DNA of 64,000 nucleotides. It comes from Pseudobacter sp. GTDB taxonomy: Bacteria; Bacteroidota; Bacteroidia; Chitinophagales; Chitinophagaceae. This document shows, one piece after another, positions 33,277-47,986 of this stretch; position 1 is the first letter of the stretch, and every line of letters begins with the position of its first letter. The notes beneath the pieces are model-generated. The model ran no database searches, was not told where the DNA came from, and was given only the letters and a program-made list of their open reading frames with translations. The stretch covers positions 186,001 through 250,000 of the forward strand of contig JAFIGX010000022.1 of the NCBI GenBank assembly GCA_017849455.1, in the 5' to 3' direction. The position numbers and the translations under genes are program-made.

Positions 33277-35088
33277 ATGGCTGGCAGTAGTGAAAAAGAG
33301 ACAATGCCCGTAACCCTATACCAGGTAGATACATCCCTTTTTGTTGACGACGACTTTAATTACATCACCCGGCAAATTATCAGCAGGGCCGGATTGGCCG
33401 GCTTCAATTTTCAACCTGATAAACTGGCCAGGCACTCTATAGACGAATTTTCTTTTAGAGTGTTTTACCAGGTAAAAAATAAACCTCCGCAGTGGCGCGG
33501 CTTTTTAAAAGGTATCCTGCCAGACGATTCCGTCCTAGCAAACGCCAAGAATAAAACGCACTCTTTCCTGCTGTTCATCCATTACAAAGAATCTGTTTTT
33601 GCTGTTTGCGGCGGTGTGGGCGTAGCTGCAATCAGGCAGTTTGTGGTGCATGACTTCGGCATGCAGGTATTGGTTAGGTTATTTGAAAAACATGACCGGG
33701 TAGTGAAGTCTACCCAGGAACGCGGCGTTTCAGGAATCGTGCTTGGGCAAATGCGATACTACCGGGGCGACCAGCGTTTTTCTGACGAAAACGAGTTTGG
33801 AAAAGTGTATAAAAAATTTCAAGCGCAGGTAAAAAAACGACAACTAACAGAAATCTTCGGCTTTCATCCGGACGAGGTGAAGGCAAAAGGTTCAGGTTGT
33901 ACAGCAAAAGACTCCTTCCAGCTCGGTAAATCAGTTGACACGGAAGATTTACTCGACAATATAAAAACTTACGTGGACCTGCTCGATATTAAAGAGGGCA
34001 ACTTCACGCTCAACAAAGTGGTACCCGTTAATAAGAAAACCCCGGCAGGTCAAAAATTAATACAGGACTTGAGAGACGGACTCGTTGAGCAGTTATACAT
34101 TGACTGTAGAAACAACACCAGTTCCGATCTTGATTTTTGCCATCCCGACTTTGAAGATTACCGGACCGCTGAACGCTTCGTGATTGCCCTTGACAGGGAA
34201 ACCACTATCGAAATCGAGGATGAAGAGCTTTCCCTTGATGTAATTATTCGGGAAGTTAGGGCTCGCGACTTCTTGGTAATGGATGACGCTGCGACCTTTA
34301 GAATTTCAGTACTCGATAATGAAATCAAATCCTACGACAGTGAGGGCACCCTTTTAACCATGGGCACCGTCCTGCAACATCTGCACGGAGAGGTTACTTA
34401 CGAAGGCAATACCTATTTCCTGATCGATGGGCAGTGGTATCGCATAGACCCCGAGTTTATTAAAGATCTTAATGAGGGTTGCCGTGATGTCCTGCAGCAG
34501 ACATGGCAGGAAAGCTTACTGGATGCTCCGTTTGACCTAAACAAAGATGAATCAGTATTTAACCAGCAGTTCATTGGCAAGCCCGGTACTTATGTATTCG
34601 ATACCATAACACCCGATAATATAGAAGCGTGTGACATTCTAAAAAGCGATGACCACAATACCTGGTTCATCCATGTAAAAAAGGGGTTTGATAATTCAAT
34701 AAGGGACCTAGCCTCGCAAATAATGATCGCCGCAAAAACTATACAGGCTGATAAAAAATCCGGCTTTCGCTATTTAGATAGCTTGCAATCCCAAACCGAA
34801 GAAGGTCTTTTTAGCGATAGCCCAGCAAAAAAATCATTGGCGAAGCAAACATTTCCCACAGGTGGGATAAAATCCTTACTTCAAAACCGCAAAGACATAC
34901 AAATCGTTTTTTGCCTGGCGTTCGTGGATAAGGCCAGCAGCTCGCGTACACTGAAAGATAATATTGAAGATTTCCGATCTAATATTGCCAAGTATTCTCT
35001 CATAGAACTCTATCGGCAGATAAGGAGTATGGGATTCGACCTGAAAATTGTTCAGCTCCCTGCGTTACCCAAGGCAAAGAAAAAGTGA
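33277..35088 (+). CDS. TIGR04141/DUF6119-family sporadically distributed protein
   Basis: A 603-residue protein that fits the TIGR04141 (DUF6119) family. It opens with a beta-strand carrying a 'VTLYQVD' start, has GFKGIL-like turns early, the VTYEGNTYFLIDGQWYRID segment near residue 380, and near residue 460 the block ACDILKSDD...WFIHVKKG followed by the LASQIMIAAKTI helix. The D...HVK spacing is reminiscent of a PD-(D/E)xK nuclease core, but that is inference. Family members are scattered among genomes and often found in defence islands; the mechanism is not known to me. It is flanked by the two 98-bp repeats and transcribed opposite to all other island genes, suggesting separate acquisition. 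Confidence 0.65.
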   Translation: MAGSSEKETMPVTLYQVDTSLFVDDDFNYITRQIISRAGLAGFNFQPDKLARHSIDEFSFRVFYQVKNKPPQWRGFLKGILPDDSVLANAKNKTHSFLLFIHYKESVFAVCGGVGVAAIRQFVVHDFGMQVLVRLFEKHDRVVKSTQERGVSGIVLGQMRYYRGDQRFSDENEFGKVYKKFQAQVKKRQLTEIFGFHPDEVKAKGSGCTAKDSFQLGKSVDTEDLLDNIKTYVDLLDIKEGNFTLNKVVPVNKKTPAGQKLIQDLRDGLVEQLYIDCRNNTSSDLDFCHPDFEDYRTAERFVIALDRETTIEIEDEELSLDVIIREVRARDFLVMDDAATFRISVLDNEIKSYDSEGTLLTMGTVLQHLHGEVTYEGNTYFLIDGQWYRIDPEFIKDLNEGCRDVLQQTWQESLLDAPFDLNKDESVFNQQFIGKPGTYVFDTITPDNIEACDILKSDDHNTWFIHVKKGFDNSIRDLASQIMIAAKTIQADKKSGFRYLDSLQSQTEEGLFSDSPAKKSLAKQTFPTGGIKSLLQNRKDIQIVFCLAFVDKASSSRTLKDNIEDFRSNIAKYSLIELYRQIRSMGFDLKIVQLPALPKAKKK

Positions 35089-35450: not shown

Positions 35451-35753
35451 TTATTCACTAAAAGACTCTGTGTCCTGAGCAGGTGGAGCGTCAGGACGGG
35501 GGAGGTGTTGCATCCAATTCATCATATTACTCTGAAGGCGCAGGGACTCATTGACAGTCGTTAAATCAAGGCGCCCATTTGGCAAAAAGCGCAATCGCTT
35601 TATATGAGGATACGTAGCCCAATATGCATTTTGCATCAGATTACGGTTGCCACTATCCATCTTCCTTTTAAAATCGGCCAAAGCCAAATAAATATTGTGC
35701 TCAAATTCAGCTCTATCCTGTGGGACAGGCATACCGTATTTACTCTTCTTCAT
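35451..35753 (-). CDS. Small STAND-operon protein, paralogue of the preceding gene
   Basis: About 100 residues from the ATG at 35753 (MKKSKYGMPVPQDRAEFEHN). The core IKRLRFLPNGRLDLTTVNES matches IKRIRFLPNRRIDLNTINEL-type sequence in the upstream small protein, and both have an F-x-x-N helix about 40 residues earlier, so they are paralogues. The start overlaps the end of the upstream gene by 14 bases (ATGAAGAAGAGTAA), which implies translational coupling. The tail is proline-rich and acidic. It is the last gene of the Avs-like operon. The function is unknown; a regulatory or inhibitory partner of the STAND protein is one possibility. Confidence 0.7.
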   Translation of the reverse strand: MKKSKYGMPVPQDRAEFEHNIYLALADFKRKMDSGNRNLMQNAYWATYPHIKRLRFLPNGRLDLTTVNESLRLQSNMMNWMQHLPRPDAPPAQDTESFSE

Positions 35754-36003
35754 GTTGCTCAATATTTTGATAATATTGCATCTGGACAATTGTATTAGCA
35801 GCCGACCTTGCAAGTTCGTTTATGGTGTTGAGATCAATTCTCCTGTTGGGCAAAAAACGGATCCGCTTTAGGCTTAAAATAGTAAGTCGCGCACCAACAG
35901 AAGAAAACTGTACCTTATCCTCCTTCAGGTGTTGTCCTAAAAAATTAAAGTTACGTTCAAATAGAGATCTTGAAGGAAGATACTCATTATCGTGCTGAAA
36001 CAT
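35740..36003 (-). CDS. Small STAND-operon protein
   Basis: An 87-residue protein starting three bases after the stop codon of the large STAND segment. The conserved core is LKRIRFLPNRRIDLNTINEL (about residues 46-65), shared with the next gene product. The N-terminal part (SLFERNFNFLGQHLKED) is probably helical and the C-terminus is acidic (EQHEEE). No membrane segment or catalytic motif is visible. I do not recognise the family. Tight spacing on both sides means it is produced together with the STAND protein, so a structural or regulatory role in that system is the natural guess. Confidence 0.7.
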   Translation of the reverse strand: MFQHDNEYLPSRSLFERNFNFLGQHLKEDKVQFSSVGARLTILSLKRIRFLPNRRIDLNTINELARSAANTIVQMQYYQNIEQHEEE

Positions 36004-36005
36004 AA

Positions 36006-39000
36006 TTAGTCATTAATTATTTCAAAGACATTATCCAGATTATTTTCATCCACTCTTGGTGTGATGGCTATGTTAAGGGCATGTTTTACCAACTCAGGAA
36101 AACGCGCACGTATCCCGCTATTATGCTGAAAACTTCTCTGTAAATATTTGTCAGATTTTATAAACTCCTTAACAGTCAGCGGCGAAACAAATTGTACAAT
36201 ACTGCTTAACAGTGTCTCACAAAATTGCCGGTTCAATATGCCTAGCTCATTAAGTGAATCGATTTCATAGTCAATGGAGTGTAGATGAGGTTCGTCCAAG
36301 GCAACCTCACCAACTAGGATAATCGCCTTTGGAATATGCTCTCTTAAAGCTCCATACAATCGGTGTGGCGCACTACCATTTAACTTAATCGAAACATCTA
36401 AAAATCGTTTACGAATGCAGAAATGTTTAACCGCCAGAATGGAGTCATATAGGGCTGCGTCATTGTCTATTACTTCTGTTATCACAGTTGCATTCGTATT
36501 TGCCAGTTCACTTAGCAAAATGGCAGCCTGTTCTGTAGAAGCAAGCGGCGCATCTGATACAGCCTCTTCTATTAAAAGCCTAACCAGTAAAACAGGCTCC
36601 TGCGTCAAAATAATTTGAATACAGGAGTACGCTTGCTCTCTTACAAAAGTGACCGGATGATTGAGTAACCAAATAAGGAATTTACTCATCACCTCATCAT
36701 TTAACGCTGTGGGTTGAGTAACATTCAGCCATTGATACTTATCCAAATATTTTTGATGCGGCCTGACTATAAGTGAAAAATGCTCCGCCACAATTTCATA
36801 AACTTCGGCAGCTTGCTGCTCGGTCAATATATGCTCAAAGTACCATAGCAAATGGTTTACTATTGACCAGCCGCTACTCTCTGCCTGCCTGATGTGTTCT
36901 TTAATGTAAGGTAAAATATCCTTATCGGATTGCAAAAGTGCCTTAATATTATCCTGCGCAAGTTTGCTGGAATGTGAGTAGTTATTCCACCAAATGCTGA
37001 TATGCTCGTCTAAGAATGCTTGACATCCACTACGCAGCAATTCCGCAACACCTACTCTGCCCTCTGTACAAGCATCATTGAACAGGTCAAAGCGATTGCT
37101 TTCCTTGTGCTGACCTGTGTGCGATTCAACTTTATCGTCATCTCCCTGCTCTATTTCTATTTGCCATTCGATACCTCTGGCAAGCAAGTAACCCTGAAAT
37201 CCCGTTTCGGACGCGCCAGTCAACTTAGATCCAAACCTATTCACAAAACGGGTGGAATCCTCTTTCATTTCTTCAGAAACCGCGATATTTGCCGCATCCT
37301 CAAGTAACGCTTCCGGCTGAACACCGCTGTTCTCGGCTATCTGATTAATCGCGGTACTTAAGTTAGTGGAATACTCCGGCAGATAACGGTCAATATCATC
37401 ATTTACGATAAATATCCGCGCAAGCGCCCAACGCAATAGTGGATGCATTTTAGCATTTAATACCTGCAATACACTATACTCCTGATTTATATTATTTGCA
37501 CCCCAGTTATAACCATCGCCCAGTAACGGCATATCTGTTGTGAAATTCTCCGCATTAAAAATAGTTACGCTTGCAGGCGGCACTATTTCAAACTTAAAGT
37601 AGTCGATACCCTTGTCCAAGGCTCCCTGCTCAATTATGTGTCCAATAAACCTGCCCTTATCATTCCGGATGTACTGTTGAAAGGTCATCTCCCCTGACGC
37701 AAAATCCAGAATGCTTGCAAAACGCGCAAAATAACTATTTACATTTGCCGGTACTTTTTTTACAGAAAGCAAGGTATTTAACAGGTCAAACTGGCCTTCC
37801 TTATACCATCCTGGCCCCATAGAGGTTTGTAACATCTCTTTAAACAGTGCAGAGGCAAGGCCGTACTCCTGGAGCAGGCCATAGATTTCTATAATTTTCA
37901 ACAACTCAGGTGTTCGCTCCCATCTGTTCTGAACACCAATGAGAATATGGTTTTTCCATATTTCAACAATTGGCAAAATCTTATTTTTGTGTACTTCACC
38001 AAGGATCATTTGCTTAACTACAACATACAGGCATTCCCTATACCCTTCAGTATATAATCCCCATTGATCGCCTGCTCTTCCCTGAATCTTAGCAATTGTT
38101 TTATCAACTGCTGACGCGTCGAACACCTGTTGTACTTCCACTATCTTTTGATATATTATCGGGAGAACTACTTCAGGCACTCCATAGCCGCTCTTCCAAT
38201 ATCGCCTCTCATCAAGAGAAAAATTGATAGCAGTCGTCAAATCAGAAACCATTTGGGCCGTCTCGCTGTAATCAGCGTCTTCGGCCTTTAATCGATACAG
38301 TTTCCCTTCTAGAAAAGATATACGTTGCAACATAGATAAAATGTAATCCTCCCAATGTTCATGTCGAGCAGACCGTGTGTCAATCGAAGGAAACACATTC
38401 TTTTCATCAATATATCCGAGGCATTTGTACCTAAACATCATTTCTCCTATCCCACTAATATCTGTGTCAACCCCATTTGGCATCTTCAAAGAATAGGAAG
38501 GAGGTGGATTTTTTAAATAGTCGCCTATCAACTTAATAAGTAATTCCGGACGTTTACTGTCACCCATAAGCGACTCAACCATTATCGCAGCATTAGCGGA
38601 ACTCTCTTTATAACCATTCGCCTCCATCATATCCTCCACGTCCTTCAACATTTCTAAATATCTCTCGCTCTTTTCTTTAACAGGTACATTATATAAATTA
38701 AACTGGTTAAACTGGAAAAGTGCCCGTCCATAAAACATAGTCCACGCAGAATCGACCGTATGATTACTAAATTTCGATACAGCCTTAGCACTCGCATAAT
38801 AGTCAAATTGCCGCAGTTGGCAGGCATACAGGGTCGCAGTAGATCCCTCCCGTATGTGCTCAATGGCTTGGCTATCTTCAGTCATCCCTTCTTCTTCGGC
38901 ACCGGTTTTCCAACTCAACAAAAGCTGCTGCAACCTCATAAATTCATACTTTGGCCACTCCTCATCCTTAACTGTTGCGATAGCTAAAGCATCCAACTTA

Positions 39001-40025
39001 AAACTAAAAATAGACATGGGTATTCCCTTGCCCGTTTCGGTCGCTTCTCGAAACTGGCGTCTAAATTTTGCATCTATCGATTCGAATAATGCGTCACCCT
39101 CATTGGTGGCTCCATTTTCATAATACAGTTGAAGAAAAAGCAATGCATCGTTGTCCGACACCAATAATGTCTTATCCCGAACGATGTAATTGAGTGATGG
39201 GCCAAACTTCTTTAGGCTAATAAGTGCAAGCGCAATACGGCTCGCATTCTCCGCAAAAACACTATCATAGCGAAACTTGATTCGTTCAAGTAGTAATAAC
39301 AGCCGTATTAACGCGGTTGTTTGAAGACCATCCACAGACAGGTCTATTATTCGTTGTATGTCTGATAAGACGAGATCCGGTGACACATCGGCCAAAGCAC
39401 ATTTATCCGCCCAGTTCTGGTCGCAGTTGCTGATGGCAAGTGCAGCCGAATTACTTTTTGTAAGGTGGTATAATCTATTGGTAATAGTAAACAGTTCGTC
39501 TGGTCGTCTATCACAGTAGGCTACGATATAATCATTTGCTTGCGCTATATTAATTTCTGCTTTCTGGTCAACATATTCTTTAAAAGAACTGTGATATATT
39601 TCTATCTGCTCCTGTTGCCCAAAAAGATACCGTATGATAGGGAAGAAAGTCTGAAACGACAGTTTGTAGGGCTCAGGCAACATCTCAAATAAATCCCTTG
39701 GCAAAACTGTCTGCCGCAGTTGTGCCAGGATTAGCACAGGCCAAAGCCTGTCAGGTTGTTGCGATATTTTGTCCCAGATAGCGTCATAGTATTTTGTGAT
39801 ATCGCCGCTGATGACAGGGATACTTTCTACCCACACTTCGAGCTCCTCTGCCCGCTCATTGATTTTCTGGGTAAGCACGTAATTAACTAGATACCGCAGG
39901 TAAAGGGGATGTCCCTCGGACTTTTGTGCTATCTGCTGCACCCACAGAGACTGGAAGCCTTGGCTCATCAACCTGATCCATAATAAACGCCTCGCATTGT
40001 CCAAGGTCAAGTGGTGTGACTTCAA
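36006..40025 (-). CDS. STAND NTPase, C-terminal winged-helix and repeat sensor part
   Basis: A frame of 1,339 codons that continues the trypsin-STAND protein. Its first residues that make sense are VQQIAQKSEGHPLYLRYLVN, the helix that normally follows the STAND NTPase core. Then comes a winged-helix-like stretch (ILAQLRQTVLPRDLFEML, IYHSSFKEYV), and the remaining ~1,100 residues are alpha-helical, TPR/HEAT-like, as in the target-recognition part of Avs proteins. The frame overlaps the upstream one by 143 bases and is shifted +1, so translation from its own ATG would cut the conserved core. One extra base near 39955-39975 (GAGCCAAGG on the minus strand) would explain the split. It may be one broken gene, or one read by frameshifting. 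Confidence 0.75.
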   Translation of the reverse strand: MKSHHLTLDNARRLLWIRLMSQGFQSLWVQQIAQKSEGHPLYLRYLVNYVLTQKINERAEELEVWVESIPVISGDITKYYDAIWDKISQQPDRLWPVLILAQLRQTVLPRDLFEMLPEPYKLSFQTFFPIIRYLFGQQEQIEIYHSSFKEYVDQKAEINIAQANDYIVAYCDRRPDELFTITNRLYHLTKSNSAALAISNCDQNWADKCALADVSPDLVLSDIQRIIDLSVDGLQTTALIRLLLLLERIKFRYDSVFAENASRIALALISLKKFGPSLNYIVRDKTLLVSDNDALLFLQLYYENGATNEGDALFESIDAKFRRQFREATETGKGIPMSIFSFKLDALAIATVKDEEWPKYEFMRLQQLLLSWKTGAEEEGMTEDSQAIEHIREGSTATLYACQLRQFDYYASAKAVSKFSNHTVDSAWTMFYGRALFQFNQFNLYNVPVKEKSERYLEMLKDVEDMMEANGYKESSANAAIMVESLMGDSKRPELLIKLIGDYLKNPPPSYSLKMPNGVDTDISGIGEMMFRYKCLGYIDEKNVFPSIDTRSARHEHWEDYILSMLQRISFLEGKLYRLKAEDADYSETAQMVSDLTTAINFSLDERRYWKSGYGVPEVVLPIIYQKIVEVQQVFDASAVDKTIAKIQGRAGDQWGLYTEGYRECLYVVVKQMILGEVHKNKILPIVEIWKNHILIGVQNRWERTPELLKIIEIYGLLQEYGLASALFKEMLQTSMGPGWYKEGQFDLLNTLLSVKKVPANVNSYFARFASILDFASGEMTFQQYIRNDKGRFIGHIIEQGALDKGIDYFKFEIVPPASVTIFNAENFTTDMPLLGDGYNWGANNINQEYSVLQVLNAKMHPLLRWALARIFIVNDDIDRYLPEYSTNLSTAINQIAENSGVQPEALLEDAANIAVSEEMKEDSTRFVNRFGSKLTGASETGFQGYLLARGIEWQIEIEQGDDDKVESHTGQHKESNRFDLFNDACTEGRVGVAELLRSGCQAFLDEHISIWWNNYSHSSKLAQDNIKALLQSDKDILPYIKEHIRQAESSGWSIVNHLLWYFEHILTEQQAAEVYEIVAEHFSLIVRPHQKYLDKYQWLNVTQPTALNDEVMSKFLIWLLNHPVTFVREQAYSCIQIILTQEPVLLVRLLIEEAVSDAPLASTEQAAILLSELANTNATVITEVIDNDAALYDSILAVKHFCIRKRFLDVSIKLNGSAPHRLYGALREHIPKAIILVGEVALDEPHLHSIDYEIDSLNELGILNRQFCETLLSSIVQFVSPLTVKEFIKSDKYLQRSFQHNSGIRARFPELVKHALNIAITPRVDENNLDNVFEIIND

Positions 40026-41169
40026 CTTTCTGTTCTTGCCTTATAACAGATCGGATCGCACCCGGCAGAATCGCTTCTGAGGTACAGGAGAGTATAATTT
40101 TAACATGCTCATGCAGAGTCGTGGGAAGGATGCCAAGGAAAGTTTCGGTGTTGGTAACGTCGTCCAGCCCATCGATAATGATTATGCCTGTCTTGTCCTG
40201 TTGTTCATAATAGCGCCCAAGCTCATTTAACATACCTGTCAACCGGATTACACGCTTTTCCCAAGTCATTTCCTCTTTGGGAAGCAGTTCCCCTGTGAGT
40301 GTTGTGCTGAGAAGTTGCTCCATAGTTTCCAAAAAAAACGGTGGCGAAATTCTCGTGCTAACCGGCAGGGTACTATTCGGCACTTTAATGAAATAATGAC
40401 CGCACAAAACGACTTCGTCCTTTGATGGTTTAAAAGTGGCCATCAGTGTTGATTTTCCCGATCCGGGCGCTCCATAGGTTAATATATAGCTGCCCTCCCT
40501 TTCTATGGCGTCATTAATAGCCGCGATAACAGCGTAGTTAGGCGTGGATGTTTTCACATCTTCACTAAACTCCTGCGGTATATTGGAAAAGACATCCGCC
40601 TCCTTAACAGCTACCACATTTTGTTCAAGGAATCCCTGTAGTTTCTTAACGCTGATGCAAGTGATACGGTCATCGCTTTGACGGAGCACAACACCGGATA
40701 CATGGCCGCCTGTTACAAGCGGAGATCCGGAGAGGCCGCTGTAGTCATATTGCTTTGCTATATTAAGTTCCCCAACAATAAAATCACTTATCTCTCCAAT
40801 AATAACTTGCGCTATCTTTCCTGACAAAGACAAGCTCGAAGCGTTGTTTTGGTAAGGATAGCCGAATAACTGGCAATCCTCTTTTACTTTCGTAGGAGAA
40901 GCTTCTAAAGGAAGGAAATTTTCTGACGCTTCTTCGCATGCAAGTAGGCATATATCCAAGTCTAAATCGTAGTTATGAATTGTACAGGTTATTCTTCTGG
41001 CACCGGCCACAATCTCAATCGGCTTTCCTTCATCCACGTTATCGGCAATAACATGAAAAGCAGTTAGCAGCCTGTTACTTTTTACATAAAAAGCTGTCCC
41101 TTCTTGGTCGCCGCAATTTATTCTAACTGTTGCTTGCTGTACCAGGGTTGGAGTTAAAATTTGCTTCAT
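39883..41169 (-). CDS. Trypsin-like protease fused to STAND NTPase core (Avs type I-like)
   Basis: From the ATG at 41169 the protein begins with a trypsin-like domain: His39 in LLTAFHVI, Asp72 in LDLDICLL, Ser147 in GLSGSP. A STAND/AAA core follows, with Walker A GAPGSGKST (233-241) and Walker B IIIIDGLDD (about 320). It then runs into 40 residues without family resemblance before the stop, because the true continuation lies in the +1 frame. In Avs type I (AVAST) systems, as I recall them, a metallo-beta-lactamase, a trypsin-like protease and a STAND NTPase are encoded together; here protease and NTPase are fused. A TTG at 41181 lies in the preceding gene; ATG 41169 is one base after that gene's stop. 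Confidence 0.8.
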   Translation of the reverse strand: MKQILTPTLVQQATVRINCGDQEGTAFYVKSNRLLTAFHVIADNVDEGKPIEIVAGARRITCTIHNYDLDLDICLLACEEASENFLPLEASPTKVKEDCQLFGYPYQNNASSLSLSGKIAQVIIGEISDFIVGELNIAKQYDYSGLSGSPLVTGGHVSGVVLRQSDDRITCISVKKLQGFLEQNVVAVKEADVFSNIPQEFSEDVKTSTPNYAVIAAINDAIEREGSYILTYGAPGSGKSTLMATFKPSKDEVVLCGHYFIKVPNSTLPVSTRISPPFFLETMEQLLSTTLTGELLPKEEMTWEKRVIRLTGMLNELGRYYEQQDKTGIIIIDGLDDVTNTETFLGILPTTLHEHVKIILSCTSEAILPGAIRSVIRQEQKVEVTPLDLGQCEAFIMDQVDEPRLPVSVGAADSTKVRGTSPLPAVSS

Positions 41170-41170
41170 A

Positions 41171-42367
41171 TCAAAGGTCAATTTTCAGTGGTTTGTCGCC
41201 ATCTGAGATGACAATGTTATAATTATATTTCGTCTTCCATTCTACGTTGTCTATGGCAGGTATAATAGCTATAGGATAATTAAAATATAACGTCCTTTGG
41301 TTATTAGTAGGTCGTGTAACAATCCTGGCAATTGTTTCCAAATCAGGATGATTATGTATTTTCCCGTTGGTCGAAAAAACATAGGCGGTAGAATCAATGA
41401 TTTCAAGGAGTTCTCTGCTCGTATTAAGTACGCTGCCATGATGGGATAACTTGATCAGATTGAACCTAATAGGGAATGGCCCTTGGGGATATTGCTTTTT
41501 CAACTGCTCTACAATCAAAGACGGGTGTGCATCCCCTAACATTAATATTTTCTTTTCGCCGGCTTCCAATACAAATGCGATGGAACTTCCATTGGTGGCA
41601 GTATTATCTTCTGGGAACTCGGCGGCTGCAAGTTCTTCCAAATCCACAATACCATGGCTGACATTTTTTTCAACTGCTATTTTGGCTTCCTTCTCCTGCG
41701 CCAGGACGAACTCAAAGGCGTCGTCAAATCTTGTGTCATCACCTTTTACCGCGTATCCTAACAGATACAACTCTTTTTGCCATATTTTGTGTAGCCGTGT
41801 CAACTTTTCTTTAGTGGGAGACAATAATCGTAATATTATCTCTGGGGAAATATTGATGACGGCTGCATTTTCTATGCACACAGCTTTACTATCAAAGGCC
41901 GTATTCCAGGCATAGCCATCCCTAGCAATGTAGGTGGCAAGTGCAGATCCTTGTTCCGCGCCAATTTCCTTTTCCCCGAGCACTATTTCTTTTACTGATG
42001 GTTTTCGGTCAAAAGCGTCCAATGATTTACCATTGAATGTAGCTAATACTGAACCAGCTACGGCATGCGGCTGTATATGTCGGTAAGCATTATGCCAGAT
42101 GTTATCAATTGGTATAATAGCGGAAGCGGTATTATCTTTTATTAAGCGGTTAATACCAGAAATATGGTCGCCGTCAATATGGGTCACTATCAGATGAGAT
42201 ATCGATTTCCCTTTGGCGTTCAATTCGGCCAAAGCTGGTCTAAGATGTGTATTAAAGGTATTAACGTACCCTCCGTCTATCAATAAATAGGTTTCCAGCA
42301 CATCAATGAGTATGCTGTCACCGTTGAGCGCAGGGTATACATATATGGATATGGTGAACTTGTTCAT
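41171..42367 (-). CDS. Metallo-beta-lactamase-fold hydrolase (Avs1A/ComEC-like)
   Basis: A 398-residue MBL-fold protein of the ComEC-like type. The metal motif is THIDGDHISG (HxDxDH, about residues 62-67), the bridging Asp is in MLGDAHPS (about 278) and the last His is in LSHHGS (about 310). Such domains hydrolyse phosphoesters or nucleic acid. It is the first gene of the operon and its stop is followed after one base by the ATG of the trypsin-STAND gene. This order is that of Avs type I defence systems. The substrate is unknown. The insert between about residues 165 and 250 is longer than in ComEC. Confidence 0.8.
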   Translation of the reverse strand: MNKFTISIYVYPALNGDSILIDVLETYLLIDGGYVNTFNTHLRPALAELNAKGKSISHLIVTHIDGDHISGINRLIKDNTASAIIPIDNIWHNAYRHIQPHAVAGSVLATFNGKSLDAFDRKPSVKEIVLGEKEIGAEQGSALATYIARDGYAWNTAFDSKAVCIENAAVINISPEIILRLLSPTKEKLTRLHKIWQKELYLLGYAVKGDDTRFDDAFEFVLAQEKEAKIAVEKNVSHGIVDLEELAAAEFPEDNTATNGSSIAFVLEAGEKKILMLGDAHPSLIVEQLKKQYPQGPFPIRFNLIKLSHHGSVLNTSRELLEIIDSTAYVFSTNGKIHNHPDLETIARIVTRPTNNQRTLYFNYPIAIIPAIDNVEWKTKYNYNIVISDGDKPLKIDL

Positions 42368-42514: not shown

Positions 42515-43588
42515 TTATTCGTCAAAATGATCTATAATCGAGTTCGGTTGATATTGAAAGTCATTAATTACTTCCAAACATATTCTACGGATAAGCGCTT
42601 TATCGGAACTGCTGATATCTTTTGTCAGAATATTATTGGTGTTTTCAGGGCTCTTTACCACTATCGACTCTATATTGTCGGCAATATATTGCAACACCAA
42701 TAAAACCTTTTTAGTAAATCTTTTTGGCATTTCACCACGGTACGCTTCATAAGTATAACGAATTAACATCTGCAAAAGCGGTGAAGATATTGGCATCTCC
42801 TTTACATTTCTTAAGTGTTTAAGTACAATTAAGATATGCCTTTGCGTGTCAGTTAACTTTATACTTTTTAGTAATTGAACATCGGTTTTTGTTCGCCCGT
42901 GTGTCTCAAAAATACCTTGACGATTTACAAAAAGATAGCCAGAAGTATCCTGATTTGTACCGTAAGTTAGCTTTTTAGGTGTCACATCGATTTTACGTTT
43001 TTCACCCCGGACTGAGAAATATACCCCTATGGATACACGTTGAGATCTTACTTTAACTATACCATATAATCCCACTAAGTCTTTTAAATATTCCTCCACC
43101 TCAGCGTACATTTCTTCTGTTGAACGAAATGAACCTGGATAACACTCCATGCACAAATCGATGTCAGCTTCATCCTTTAAAGCACTGCCAGCTTCCGTTG
43201 AACCATATTTATAAGGAACGTTTTTTATTTCATCCGGAAACCTACTTTTTAATAACCTGATAAGCAGTGCAGCCTTTTTTTCAAGGGAAACATAAAGCGG
43301 ATCATTTTTATGCATCGCCATCATTGCAGCCAGGTCAGTTAAGAATTCATCCGTATTGAGCGGCTTTTCGAGAGAGTTGTTATAGTCACATATTGCTCCC
43401 ACAGCAAACCCACCAACGGCTCCAACGGCACTCCCATAAAGGGTTTTACGAATTAATTGCCACCAATCAAATTTTTGGCCTGGTGCTCTATTATCTAACT
43501 GGTCAAAGGCATTTTTTACTCCGGCGATTATACCGACACCCACAGCGCCTGTGATAGCATATTTCTCTTTTTTATTCATAGCAGTCAT
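42515..43588 (-). CDS. Membrane-anchored nucleotidyltransferase (CD-NTase-like)
   Basis: 357 residues. The N-terminus has two glycine-rich hydrophobic segments (AITGAVGVGIIAGV, about 11-24, and YGSAVGAVGGFAVGAI, about 51-66) that could form a glycine-zipper membrane hairpin. The catalytic part has the nucleotidyltransferase signature GST...DIDLC (Gly129-Ser130, Asp142, Asp144) and a third acidic residue in KIDVTP (about 200), the pol-beta/CD-NTase pattern. A PAP-like helical C-terminus follows (TDTQRHILIVLKHLRN). It starts 22 bases after the GNAT gene in the CBASS operon. It could make a second nucleotide signal, modify tRNA or protein, or be a separate toxin-like module; none is shown by sequence. 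Confidence 0.75.
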   Translation of the reverse strand: MTAMNKKEKYAITGAVGVGIIAGVKNAFDQLDNRAPGQKFDWWQLIRKTLYGSAVGAVGGFAVGAICDYNNSLEKPLNTDEFLTDLAAMMAMHKNDPLYVSLEKKAALLIRLLKSRFPDEIKNVPYKYGSTEAGSALKDEADIDLCMECYPGSFRSTEEMYAEVEEYLKDLVGLYGIVKVRSQRVSIGVYFSVRGEKRKIDVTPKKLTYGTNQDTSGYLFVNRQGIFETHGRTKTDVQLLKSIKLTDTQRHILIVLKHLRNVKEMPISSPLLQMLIRYTYEAYRGEMPKRFTKKVLLVLQYIADNIESIVVKSPENTNNILTKDISSSDKALIRRICLEVINDFQYQPNSIIDHFDE

Positions 43589-43610
43589 ATTGGTTTATTT
43601 GGTTATCGAA

Positions 43611-44105
43611 TTATACTTTTTTGTATTTAAGAAATAGCCCTAAAGGTTTATTTGTTTTTGCACCAAAGTATGTGTTACCTTCTTTAATAAAACCCAAATG
43701 GGTCAAAATGTACAGCATGCTGTTTGCATTAGCGCCTACAGCAGTGGTAGCAAAAACATTGCAGTCCCCCAGTTCTTTAAGCAACAATCTGGAAATAGTT
43801 TTCCCTATTCCAAGTCCTCTGTAGTCATTAACAGGCTTTACATAAAGATACCCAAGTTCTGCATCAAAATTCGCCGCCAGCTTTTGTATACCCGCTTTAG
43901 CAAATGCAGACTTTGCGTTATGTTTAATAGCGCCGATGCCTATAGCCTGATTGTCGGTGTGTACCATACAAATAAGGTTACACCTTTTTATTTTTATCAT
44001 ATTGGGATCTTCGACTTCCCCCTGCTCTTTCAAAAGCACCAGAAAAGTATCCAGATCTTCTTTTGAGAACATCTCAGGCTTGTTAACAGTAAAAGTCAGT
44101 TTCAT
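43611..44105 (-). CDS. GNAT-family N-acetyltransferase
   Basis: A 164-residue single-domain GNAT protein. The acetyl-CoA pyrophosphate loop is RGLGIGK (about residue 95), preceded by the ELGYLYVKP beta-4 strand, and the C-terminal beta-5/alpha-4 part is MLYILTHLGFIKEGNTYFG. The substrate is unknown. It sits four bases after the Cap4 stop and 22 bases before the second nucleotidyltransferase, so it is expected to be co-transcribed with the CBASS genes. GNAT proteins are not standard CBASS components; it could modify a CBASS protein, act as a GNAT toxin, or just be a passenger. Confidence 0.8.
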   Translation of the reverse strand: MKLTFTVNKPEMFSKEDLDTFLVLLKEQGEVEDPNMIKIKRCNLICMVHTDNQAIGIGAIKHNAKSAFAKAGIQKLAANFDAELGYLYVKPVNDYRGLGIGKTISRLLLKELGDCNVFATTAVGANANSMLYILTHLGFIKEGNTYFGAKTNKPLGLFLKYKKV

Positions 44106-44109
44106 TTAC

Positions 44110-45582
44110 TTATTTTAATATAAAAGCTGGCACATAGCTCTGCCCCAGGTTCTCCATTATTTGAATTTCATTACAAATTGCGTTTAGCTGATGCCCGATA
44201 AAGCATGCCCCACTCATGGGGCCATAATAAAAAATGAGTAATTTTTCGGCTGTATGCGCTTTTACAAAATCCCTGACCTGCTGTTTGAATTGTTGCGCTA
44301 ATGCCACTACATCCCCACCATTTTTCAATGCATCAGGCCCCATATTACCTTCTGGTTTCAACAATAGTAAGGCGTCAGCAGCGCGATTAGTAGTAATGTA
44401 ATTTCGAACGTCTGCGGCCAGGTTACCAGTTACACTAAGCCCGACGGCTACGGTTTTGGTGTTTGAACCAAAAGACTCACCACCACTATTATCACTGACC
44501 AGTTTAAAGCCGGCGCTGGCCTCCTGATTGGTTCGCCAGATATTTTCATTTTGATTTACCTCAATCGTATAGCTACTAACGCCGGAAAAAACATGGCCAA
44601 AGGCAAACCAGGGACTAAGACGGGAAAAACCGCGTGCCCGGATTAATGTTGCGCCGGTTTCTGCATTCACTTTTTTCTGTGTGGCAATAATTTTTGGAAA
44701 CAAGTCCTTTTCATAGCCAAACGCCGGAAGCAATTCATGACCCTTTACAGCACCCTGTTCTGCGTAAAATTTACGCAGGTCGATGCTGTAGTCGGGCGGC
44801 AAATCGAAAGTATGTTTCTTTACGGTAGTAAGGTATACTGTGGCAGCTTTGGGGCCCGATGGCGGCTCAAATAATTTTTTTTCTTCAAGTACTTTTTCAA
44901 GAAGTGGTAAATCGATATCCTGCCGCTTTGCTTTCACCCAGTCCCTGACTATCTGACTTGCCACCGCCAGTGCATTTTCATCGTGCTTCAGGCCAACAAG
45001 TTCCATCCTCTCTGCAACCTGTCGCTTAAAATCTTCTGTGCAGTCTTTACCAACCAAAAAGCACATGGTTTTTAAAAATGCGAACAGTTCGTCAGAATTA
45101 ATTTTAAGCGATTCGCTCATGCGCTTAAATTGCGCCACCTGCTTAGCGGATCCTGTACTTAAATAGATCTCTTCAGGCAGCCTCATGTCTTCGTTGCTGA
45201 CTTTTGAAAGGATCTCATCTGTTGTGGCAATATTCCAATTAGTAACCAGGTGCAGTTTAGCCGCCAGGCCAGGGTTTTCGTCAAGATGCTTCCGGTAGGT
45301 TTTATAAAATTTTTCCAGTAGGCTGGAACCTTTACTGCTATCCAGTAGTAAATCGATGCTGTATTCATCCCGGTGATCTACATGATACTTTACCTGGTAA
45401 AAATCCGGCGGTGTACCCGTTTTGTAATACACAGTTACATCATCAACATGCATTGCATCACGGTCTTCGATACGTACTTTAACAACGCCACTATTTTTCT
45501 TTTTTAATGAAAGGACGTGAAACCAGCAGTATAAAAACTGGTAATCGTCGCCTTTTATTCTCGCAGAAGTTTGGTTCGCCAT
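44110..45582 (-). CDS. cap4: CBASS effector Cap4: DUF4297-type nuclease plus SAVED domain
   Basis: 490 residues. The N-terminal nuclease (about 1-220) has the PD-(D/E)xK-like pattern of DUF4297: GDDYQ opening, Glu39 in VKVRIEDRDAMH, Asp47/48 in VDDV and Gln63-x-Lys65 in YQVKYH. The C-terminal half has the strand-rich SAVED ligand-binding fold (HVFSGVSSYTIEV, VGLSVTGN, ADALLLLKPEG, KLLIFYYGPMSGACFIGHQL). Cap4 binds the cyclic oligonucleotide made by the CD-NTase and then degrades double-stranded DNA, killing the infected cell. The ATG directly follows the ATPase stop (TAAATG). Length and domain order match the family. Confidence 0.88.
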   Translation of the reverse strand: MANQTSARIKGDDYQFLYCWFHVLSLKKKNSGVVKVRIEDRDAMHVDDVTVYYKTGTPPDFYQVKYHVDHRDEYSIDLLLDSSKGSSLLEKFYKTYRKHLDENPGLAAKLHLVTNWNIATTDEILSKVSNEDMRLPEEIYLSTGSAKQVAQFKRMSESLKINSDELFAFLKTMCFLVGKDCTEDFKRQVAERMELVGLKHDENALAVASQIVRDWVKAKRQDIDLPLLEKVLEEKKLFEPPSGPKAATVYLTTVKKHTFDLPPDYSIDLRKFYAEQGAVKGHELLPAFGYEKDLFPKIIATQKKVNAETGATLIRARGFSRLSPWFAFGHVFSGVSSYTIEVNQNENIWRTNQEASAGFKLVSDNSGGESFGSNTKTVAVGLSVTGNLAADVRNYITTNRAADALLLLKPEGNMGPDALKNGGDVVALAQQFKQQVRDFVKAHTAEKLLIFYYGPMSGACFIGHQLNAICNEIQIMENLGQSYVPAFILK

Positions 45583-46500
45583 TTAGTTTTCTTTAAAAGG
45601 AGGAGTTGGTAACATTTGTTTTGTAAATGACAGTGCTTTGCCAAAATCTATAGGGTCATCTGGAAATGCTTCCAGCACTATTCCCGGTAGCAGGCGCTGC
45701 ATGATGTCTGAGTATGTAAACCCATAATCCCTGCCAGCGCTGGGGCCGGTTGCGTTTACCAGGTCTTGCAATTCCTTATCGTTTATTCCTGTCCCATCAA
45801 AGGCACCCGCCAAGATTTTCTTACGCTGCTCATCGCCAGGCCGGCTAAACTCGAAGATTGACGCTGCCCGTCGCCTTACAGCAGGATCAAGCGCAGATAG
45901 CCGGTTAGTACACATAACAATAATGACAGGCAACTTCGCCGTGGCGATCCTGTCTATACCCCTGATAAGTGCGTTTACACCAGCCTTGTCCTCGTGGTGC
46001 ATCTGGTTCAGTTCACGGGATTGTGCCAAAGCGTCCGCTTCATCTATCAACAGGATATAACCCGTGCCTGGTTTCTTAGAACCGGTCCCTGCCTTTCTTG
46101 CTTCAGTATAAACCTCCTGAAATGCGGCGGTAATAAGGTTGGTCATATCGCCTACCATCCCGTTACCACGACTTTTAAGGCTCAGCTGGTACAGTAACAT
46201 TGTCATTTTCTCATCCTTCGCCAATATATCCCCGAAAGTTTCTGCCAAGGTGCTTTTCCCGGTGCCGACATCGCCGGAAAAGATAAATAAGGGCGGTTTT
46301 TGTTTAAATATCTCAAGCAGCCGAAGTTTGCCTTTGTAATGCTGTTCACTCCATGTATCCAGCAAACCCGGATTGATCAGCAACCTGCCCTCTTTTATTA
46401 ACCATTGCTTTTCTTTGTCGAGCCCGACCAGCTGCTCATACCTGCGACGTTGGTCAGGATTCGGGAAAGATGTTATTTCATCAAATGTTTCGCTTGCCAT
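45583..46500 (-). CDS. cap6: TRIP13/Pch2-like AAA+ ATPase (Cap6)
   Basis: 305 residues from the ATG at 46500, one base after the HORMA stop codon. The AAA+ core has Walker A GDVGTGKST, Walker B ILLIDEADAL, sensor 1 in VIMCTNRLSALDP and the arginine-finger region AVRRRA. In type III CBASS the TRIP13-like ATPase opens (remodels) the closed HORMA protein and thereby turns off the CD-NTase. The position between HORMA and effector genes fits that role. An upstream in-frame TTG at 46509 lies in the HORMA gene and is less likely. Confidence 0.88.
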   Translation of the reverse strand: MASETFDEITSFPNPDQRRRYEQLVGLDKEKQWLIKEGRLLINPGLLDTWSEQHYKGKLRLLEIFKQKPPLFIFSGDVGTGKSTLAETFGDILAKDEKMTMLLYQLSLKSRGNGMVGDMTNLITAAFQEVYTEARKAGTGSKKPGTGYILLIDEADALAQSRELNQMHHEDKAGVNALIRGIDRIATAKLPVIIVMCTNRLSALDPAVRRRAASIFEFSRPGDEQRKKILAGAFDGTGINDKELQDLVNATGPSAGRDYGFTYSDIMQRLLPGIVLEAFPDDPIDFGKALSFTKQMLPTPPFKEN

Positions 46501-46501
46501 A

Positions 46502-46993
46502 TTAGCCAAGAATTTTTCTATTTAATTGCTGATTGCCAGCCGAATATGTTTTATCGTATGCACCCAGAAGTCCTGTCTGTGGATCGGGAGCTCCCGTCCA
46601 CTTTATGGGATTCAAATTATCGAACGTCTCACGTTCAGCAGGCGACAGAAGATCGTATTTCCTGGAAGGGCGTCGATGGGATGAAAATGTGGCGCCATTG
46701 ATGTTTTTGCCAGGCGCTATTCTACCCGGATTGTTATCAATAAACAAGCCTGTAACGGGATTAACTTCATATGATACAGCAATCACCCAGGTTCCACCGC
46801 TCTTGAAGCCATAATCGATGGACTGTAAATATCCGTTTTTCAAAAAGAGGGTCAACTCTTCCACCAGTTCCTGTATGTGGTCATCTTTGGGTTCACCATA
46901 GAACAATTGCATCTGTTTTAAATCGGCGGCGACTTTTGAAGCCAGATATTGGGCGTGGGTTATCGTAAAAGTAGATGTATAAGTATTCGACAT
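46502..46993 (-). CDS. cap7: Bacterial HORMA-domain protein (Cap7, HORMA_1 type)
   Basis: 163 residues matching the bacterial HORMA family 1 pattern: N-terminal FTITHAQYLASKVAADLKQM, a helical ELVEELTLFLKNGYL, the YGFKSGGTWVIAVSYEV strands, the DNNPGRIAPG turn and the C-terminal DKTYSAGNQQLNR seat-belt region. HORMA proteins sense phage peptides and activate the partner CD-NTase by binding it. The gene starts three bases after the CD-NTase stop. It is the only HORMA gene in the operon, so this resembles the single-HORMA type III CBASS arrangement. Confidence 0.85.
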   Translation of the reverse strand: MSNTYTSTFTITHAQYLASKVAADLKQMQLFYGEPKDDHIQELVEELTLFLKNGYLQSIDYGFKSGGTWVIAVSYEVNPVTGLFIDNNPGRIAPGKNINGATFSSHRRPSRKYDLLSPAERETFDNLNPIKWTGAPDPQTGLLGAYDKTYSAGNQQLNRKILG

Positions 46994-46996
46994 AGT

Positions 46997-47986
46997 TTAC
47001 AGATTGAAAGTTGGTCCAAAAATTCGTTTCCAGCAGTCAATCGCACGACCCTGGGTCGTAGCAAATTGAGACCCGGTAATTGCATCCAGTGCGTCCTTTG
47101 CGGCTTCCACAATCCGCTCCCTGTCAGCAACCGAGTATAGCGCAGCCACATTATTTTCCGGGTTTACAGGGTCGAATATTTCAATAGCAGCACCCGTAGC
47201 AGCCGGCAACTTTTCCCGGCCATAGTTGTCGATAAAGCTGATCCGCTCTTTCAGACCGGTATTGATGATATACACGAAGAACGCTTCGAGCGCTTTAATA
47301 TAATCAGTAAAATCAACGCCGGTATCACACAGGTGGGCACATACCATCTCTGCCATAAAGGACTTGAAACGGAAATCCCCTTTGCTGGTATTTTCGTGCT
47401 GCCGTTTCTGTTCCTTAATCCACCATTTCACCAGGCGTATTACCTGCCGGAAATGATGCGGCCATTTTTCTTTACGTTTTCGGATAAATTTCAGATGCAG
47501 TGGGATACTGGTTAATACTCGTTTTCCTGTATCCTTATTGATAAGATAGCCACGGTCATCATCACCGCCATCATATATTACAGGGGATACATCAACGCTC
47601 AGTTGCGTACCACTGAAAGTGATAGTTGCACAGTGCGTGCCCGGCTGAACTTGTTCGGGTTTAACACCTTTACTTTTATATGCTTCCCGGAGTCTTTCTA
47701 CGAGCCAGTTAATAAGTTCAGCCTCACTTGGGTTGTTGGCTGTCTTACGGATATAGACGGCAACGTCCATATCATTCAAATCTTTGAGGGCGGTGGCTTT
47801 GGCAACACTCCCCGACCCGAGCATTTTTATAAGGTCATAATGCGGATGCTCTGTGATGTAGATTGCCAGGTTATCTTTAAGCCGATTAACCTGGGCGCGG
47901 TAATCAGTCAAATCCTCCCGCCGGATGTTCACTTTTTCTTCGGCATAGGACGCTATATCCCCGTGGGATACAAATGATTGGGCCAT
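46997..47986 (-). CDS. CBASS cyclic-oligonucleotide synthase (CD-NTase)
   Basis: 329 residues with the cGAS/DncV-like nucleotidyltransferase signature: GSGS (57-60), Asp72 and Asp74 in NDMDVAVYI and the third carboxylate Asp132 in LSVDVSP, followed by the helical OAS-type C-terminal region (RQVIRLVKWWIKEQK, GDFRFKSFMAEMVCAHL). It makes a cyclic di- or trinucleotide upon phage infection, which activates Cap4. With HORMA and TRIP13-like partners it is most likely of clade C or D; the product cannot be predicted from the sequence alone. It is the first gene of the operon, with 420 bases of non-coding DNA upstream. Confidence 0.87.
   Translation of the reverse strand: MAQSFVSHGDIASYAEEKVNIRREDLTDYRAQVNRLKDNLAIYITEHPHYDLIKMLGSGSVAKATALKDLNDMDVAVYIRKTANNPSEAELINWLVERLREAYKSKGVKPEQVQPGTHCATITFSGTQLSVDVSPVIYDGGDDDRGYLINKDTGKRVLTSIPLHLKFIRKRKEKWPHHFRQVIRLVKWWIKEQKRQHENTSKGDFRFKSFMAEMVCAHLCDTGVDFTDYIKALEAFFVYIINTGLKERISFIDNYGREKLPAATGAAIEIFDPVNPENNVAALYSVADRERIVEAAKDALDAITGSQFATTQGRAIDCWKRIFGPTFNL

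Follow-up and report, generated by a model that had tools for sequence, protein, structure and literature searches.

The operon between positions 42367 and 35451 (minus strand) of the window, as we call the whole 64,000-nucleotide stretch of Pseudobacter sp. DNA analyzed here, raises the question of whether an MBL-fold gene, a trypsin-like protease joined to a STAND NTPase and two small genes form a new antiphage system or a known one. A first-pass annotation had related the cluster to Avs type I, and this link was right at the level of the full family: the Avs1a, Avs1b and Avs1c profiles of PADLOC and NCBIfam all match, in canonical order. We therefore regard the locus as very probably an AVAST type 1 (Avs1) antiphage operon, avs1a-avs1b-avs1c-avs1c', acting by protease-driven release of the Avs1a nuclease. 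The PADLOC matches were far above chance, with E values of 2e-99 for Avs1a, 1e-59 and 1.2e-167 for the two halves of Avs1b, and 1.9e-14 and 5.2e-13 for the first and second Avs1c genes. Open reading frames (ORFs) and profiles bore out the inventory drawn up earlier (MBL gene, trypsin domain, Walker A/B NTPase, long helical C-terminal part and two small genes), and the gene junctions of 1, 2 and -14 bases proved exact.

The first gene, avs1a (41171 to 42367, minus strand), encodes an MBL-fold pro-nuclease of 398 amino acids that scores 433.1 bits against NF041809, above the curated NCBIfam equivalog cutoff of 420, and carries its HxDxDH motif as THIDGDH at residue 62. In the studied homolog, EpiAvs1a is cut next to Ile134, and mutation of Ile134 or Ile234 weakens the defense, both together abolishing it (Tuck et al., PMC12799240). 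The corresponding positions in the window protein were identified via homologs with ISA motifs at 133 to 136 and 234 to 237, not via EpiAvs1a itself, and are Ile135 (EIGAEQG) for the first cut site and Val236 (NVSHG) for the second. Ile135 is nearly invariant in 39 Avs1a homologs, a likeness to AVAST type 1, while the valine at the second site is a point against full Avs1 likeness. In the AlphaFold2 model (pLDDT of 83 and pTM of 0.85), the low-confidence stretches at residues 104 to 112, 114 to 140 and 223 to 233 form two predicted disordered insertions that coincide with the published gating loops, for which disorder is expected.

Downstream, avs1b consists of two overlapping ORFs on the minus strand, 39883 to 41169 and 36006 to 40025, which match consecutive parts of the Avs1b profile; the first-pass annotation had read protease and STAND as one continuous gene, and the break went unnoticed. 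The 5' frame runs from an ATG at 41169 to a stop at 39883 (428 codons) and encodes the trypsin-like protease and the NTPase core, with His39, Ser147 of GLSGSP (motif at residue 145), a P-loop GAPGSGKST at 233 and a Walker B-like IIIIDGLDD at 329. It matches positions 3 to 405 of NF041810 (2e-54) as well as Pfam Trypsin_2 (1.6e-11) and NACHT (1.6e-5). The 3' part, which lies in another frame and comprises 1,339 codons without stop, holds the rest of the STAND core and the long helical C-terminal sensor region (PADLOC and NCBIfam), matches NF041810 positions 391 to 1315 (5e-171) and is 36 to 38% identical to the intact Avs1b of two Bacteroidota loci, L016 and L015. Its C terminus is about 200 residues shorter than that of the proteobacterial form, as in L015, L016 and L029. 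All the Avs1b domains are present and colinear with NF041810 and PDLC02159, but they are divided between two frames, and a single ORF for the whole protein is absent. The overlapping ORFs and the relatives place the frame change, of the +1 type, in a region from 39930 to 39965 (minus strand), within the NTPase/STAND domain and immediately ahead of the conserved SEGHPLYLRYL stretch. When compared with seven intact Bacteroidota relatives, the switch fell at about 39.93 to 39.96 kb, with the best score near 39942, and four plasmid homologs gave a flatter curve between 39.94 and 40.01 kb.

The fusion of protease and STAND, which had been put forward as a novelty, is the normal state of Avs1b, since the models of this protein begin with the protease. 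Both of them (1,924 positions in PADLOC and 1,931 in NCBIfam) span trypsin and STAND, annotated Avs1b proteins of 1,910 to 1,939 amino acids match over their whole length, and the 43 full-length Avs1b proteins in our survey carry the two in one chain. The first-pass annotation had taken type I to consist of three separate proteins; this is true of the MBL protein, but protease and STAND are fused in ordinary Avs1b (PMC12799240). As the models of the named system include the fusion and one small gene, both belong to Avs1 and are not new, and the name already covers homologs that share this fusion and the small gene. The small genes, thought to stand outside the described set, both match Avs1c, its described third component; what remains of that claim is the second Avs1c gene, an extra and conserved feature of Bacteroidota.

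To place the locus among its relatives, we combined the 80 genomic loci retrieved with an Avs1a alignment search, four plasmid loci and the window, which together gave 46 loci with Avs1a, Avs1b and Avs1c. The plasmid loci (from Priestia, Chimaeribacter, Vibrio and Cupriavidus) have avs1a, an intact avs1b of 1,910 to 1,939 amino acids and one avs1c in the same order. Among 395 genomes of the phylum, profile searches with Avs1b and Avs1c found a complete Avs1 in the window's genome only, and the other Avs1b matches cover just the NTPase core. Single-sequence scans of genomic and viral contig collections with the C-terminal half of avs1b found nothing, the family being too divergent for them. Two predicted viral contigs from IMG/VR (L098 and L101) also carry a complete Avs1 operon, each with one Avs1c.

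How the frame break in avs1b is to be read bears on whether the operon is functional. One explanation, to which we give slightly less than an even chance, is a sequencing or assembly error in a strain that carries an intact, working Avs1. The assembly is a draft of 26 contigs, apart from the break the two halves (1,339 and 428 codons) are uninterrupted and well conserved, their motifs are intact, and the twelve Bacteroidota relatives in the survey have an unbroken avs1b. However, the site of the break has no long homopolymer, and avs1b is also broken in Pseudomonas alcaligenes (L056, in-frame stop) and Vogesella (L058, two frame changes), with avs1a and avs1c intact in both, although these two are drafts as well. 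Such breaks make a real loss plausible, and a true inactivation by a recent frameshift, through relaxed selection or after self-toxicity and with the rest of the operon intact, falls a little short of even odds too. The pseudogene would be one with a frame break and no further decay, and the decayed terminal Avs1c of L026 indicates that such operons do undergo partial degradation. As avs1a and avs1c have kept their frames open, the inactivation would have to be very recent, and an error is equally likely. A codon-usage scan for frame switches, run over 464 kb of the genome, missed the known break in avs1b, so that its positive control failed and it says nothing on the assembly error rate. If the frameshift is real, the window copy of avs1b is inactive, and the system encoded here might not function with its Avs1b frame broken.

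We consider it very unlikely that the frame change is put to use, by programmed frameshifting or by the reassembly of Avs1b from a protease-NTPase and a sensor polypeptide. Neither part is interrupted, both are conserved, and in-frame start codons of the downstream frame lie within the 143-base overlap, but the intact Bacteroidota relatives run continuously through the position of the break, which falls within the NTPase/STAND domain and shows neither a recognizable slippery site nor a conserved overlap. Given the intact relatives, a split or programmed gene was rejected.

The idea that the operon belongs to another MBL-protease system (of the Lamassu, Hachiman, DRT or Avs2 type) is one that we find extremely improbable and rejected: MBL-protease pairs are common to several systems (PMC12799240) and the MBL and trypsin domains also match the LmuA, HamA and RT-protease models of PADLOC, but for the STAND and C-terminal part Avs1b is the only matching model (1e-167), Avs1a exceeds its equivalog cutoff, Avs1c is present, and none of the Avs2 models matched the window proteins. 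Protease-Hachiman (HamMAB) and MBL-trypsin Lamassu do have the same kind of nuclease-protease pair as the window, but they sense through HamAB helicase or LmuAB instead of STAND, and they are without Avs1c. The Avs1 assignment is best seen against EpiAvs of Erwinia piriflorinigrans (PMC12799240), which has the same order of MBL pro-nuclease Avs1a, trypsin-STAND fusion Avs1b and small Avs1c; the window differs from AVAST type 1 in its frameshifted avs1b, its second Avs1c paralog and the valine at the second cut site.

The survey also brought up further carriers of the nuclease-protease pair. In three loci (L028:9722-14395, L063:9710-14299 and L084:3017-7321), an MBL gene precedes a fusion of a trypsin-like domain with an Avs2-type STAND protein, without Avs1c; Avs2 models reach up to 1358 bits in this set, so the pair sits on Avs2 too. 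In two Lachnospiraceae loci (L085 and L086) and in Brevibacillus (L032), the MBL gene stands with a fused trypsin domain, whose partner is a TPR protein of 1,931 amino acids in L085 and a NACHT-pentapeptide protein in L032. Outside the protease part, these proteins match none of the PADLOC sensor models, and they are possible undescribed carriers of the pair.

The two small genes that end the operon are avs1c-1 (35740 to 36003, minus strand, 87 amino acids) and avs1c-2 (35451 to 35753, minus strand, 100 amino acids, N terminus MKKSKYGMPVPQ), which overlaps the former by 14 bases. Both match PADLOC Avs1c and NF041811, in the latter case with 64.3 and 50.8 bits, below the NCBIfam cutoff of 70; both Avs1b halves are also below theirs (1500, out of reach for halves). 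Automated detection may miss the broken Avs1b and the divergent Avs1c genes of the window because all of them fall below the NCBI cutoffs. The two Avs1c copies share 29% identity. Two to three tandem copies occur in 11 of the 13 Bacteroidota Avs1 loci (the exceptions being two Hymenobacter loci with one) and in none of the 33 others, all of which have a single Avs1c. Fisher's exact test gave 6e-9, a value that shows only a strong contrast, the loci being related (not independent) and picked through a pattern search.

When 62 Avs1c sequences were placed in a tree, the terminal copies of nine Bacteroidota loci, the window's among them, grouped on one side of a branch supported at 100/99, and this clade spans loci from Flavobacteriia, Cytophagia, Sphingobacteriia, Chitinophagia and Bacteroidia. 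The support and the spread over several classes point to the terminal Avs1c as an old duplicate kept beside Avs1c. Most members have a KSKYGMPPP-like or NLGGMPP-like N-terminal stretch. Loci from Wenyingzhuangia (L015), Flavobacterium macacae (L016), a Bacteroidales MAG (L047) and Sphingobacteriaceae (L021 and L025) carry the same operon with two to three tandem Avs1c, the last with a KSKYGMPPP-type (or NLGGMPP) N terminus and clustering with that of the window; they differ from it in their intact avs1b, in the presence of three Avs1c in several of them and in sequence, the closest Avs1b pairs being 36 to 38% identical. L026 has a decayed terminal copy and L027 has none. The predicted fold of avs1c-2 is a small helical domain (pLDDT of 84), and comparison of Avs1c with solved structures found no sequence relative and only weak fold matches (best Z of 3.0).

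Two other features adjoin the operon. Directly upstream lies a CBASS cluster (42515 to 47986, minus strand throughout) with a CD-NTase (46997 to 47986), a bacterial HORMA protein (46502 to 46993), a TRIP13-like ATPase (45583 to 46509), a SAVED-PDDEXK effector (44110 to 45582), a GNAT-like protein (43611 to 44105) and a second CD-NTase-like gene (42515 to 43588); two nucleotidyltransferase genes within one CBASS cluster are unusual. On the other side, a DUF6119 protein of 603 amino acids is encoded on the opposite strand (33277 to 35088, plus strand).

The mechanism can be proposed from work on homologs. Different immune sensors are reported to carry a fused trypsin-like protease that cuts a partner MBL pro-nuclease next to isoleucines in its gating loops (Tuck et al., PMC12799240), the protease being fused to the defense enzyme and the separate MBL protein being its substrate. 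In Avs1, cutting of the Avs1a gating loops by the Avs1b protease releases the nuclease, as described in the 2025 Science paper (PMC12799240), and EpiAvs defense responds to phage terminase (PMC12799240). With an intact avs1b, the same proteolytic activation and terminase triggering may be expected here by analogy. The helical C-terminal part of Avs1b would recognize a phage protein (the large terminase in the studied system), upon which the STAND ATPase would oligomerize and switch on the fused N-terminal protease, a step from target binding to protease activation that we infer for the Bacteroidota lineage as well. The protease would then cut Avs1a in its gating loops next to the conserved isoleucines, and the freed nuclease would degrade DNA and abort the infection.

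The protease-STAND fusion is known and mechanistically explained, and we make no claim of novelty for it. The sole new element of the locus is the terminal Avs1c paralog, which has no described role; it is a modest one, and the tandem arrangement is a variant of a known system. As a working guess, the Avs1c paralogs are accessory subunits of the Avs1b complex. More tentatively, and with the odds rather against it, Bacteroidota Avs1 may have two or three functionally distinct Avs1c proteins, of which the old terminal paralog, a candidate fourth component, would enter a mixed Avs1b complex and tune sensing or restrain the protease. The expanded Avs1c set of Bacteroidota Avs1, whose last member is an ancient retained paralog, offers a way into the still unexplained function of Avs1c.
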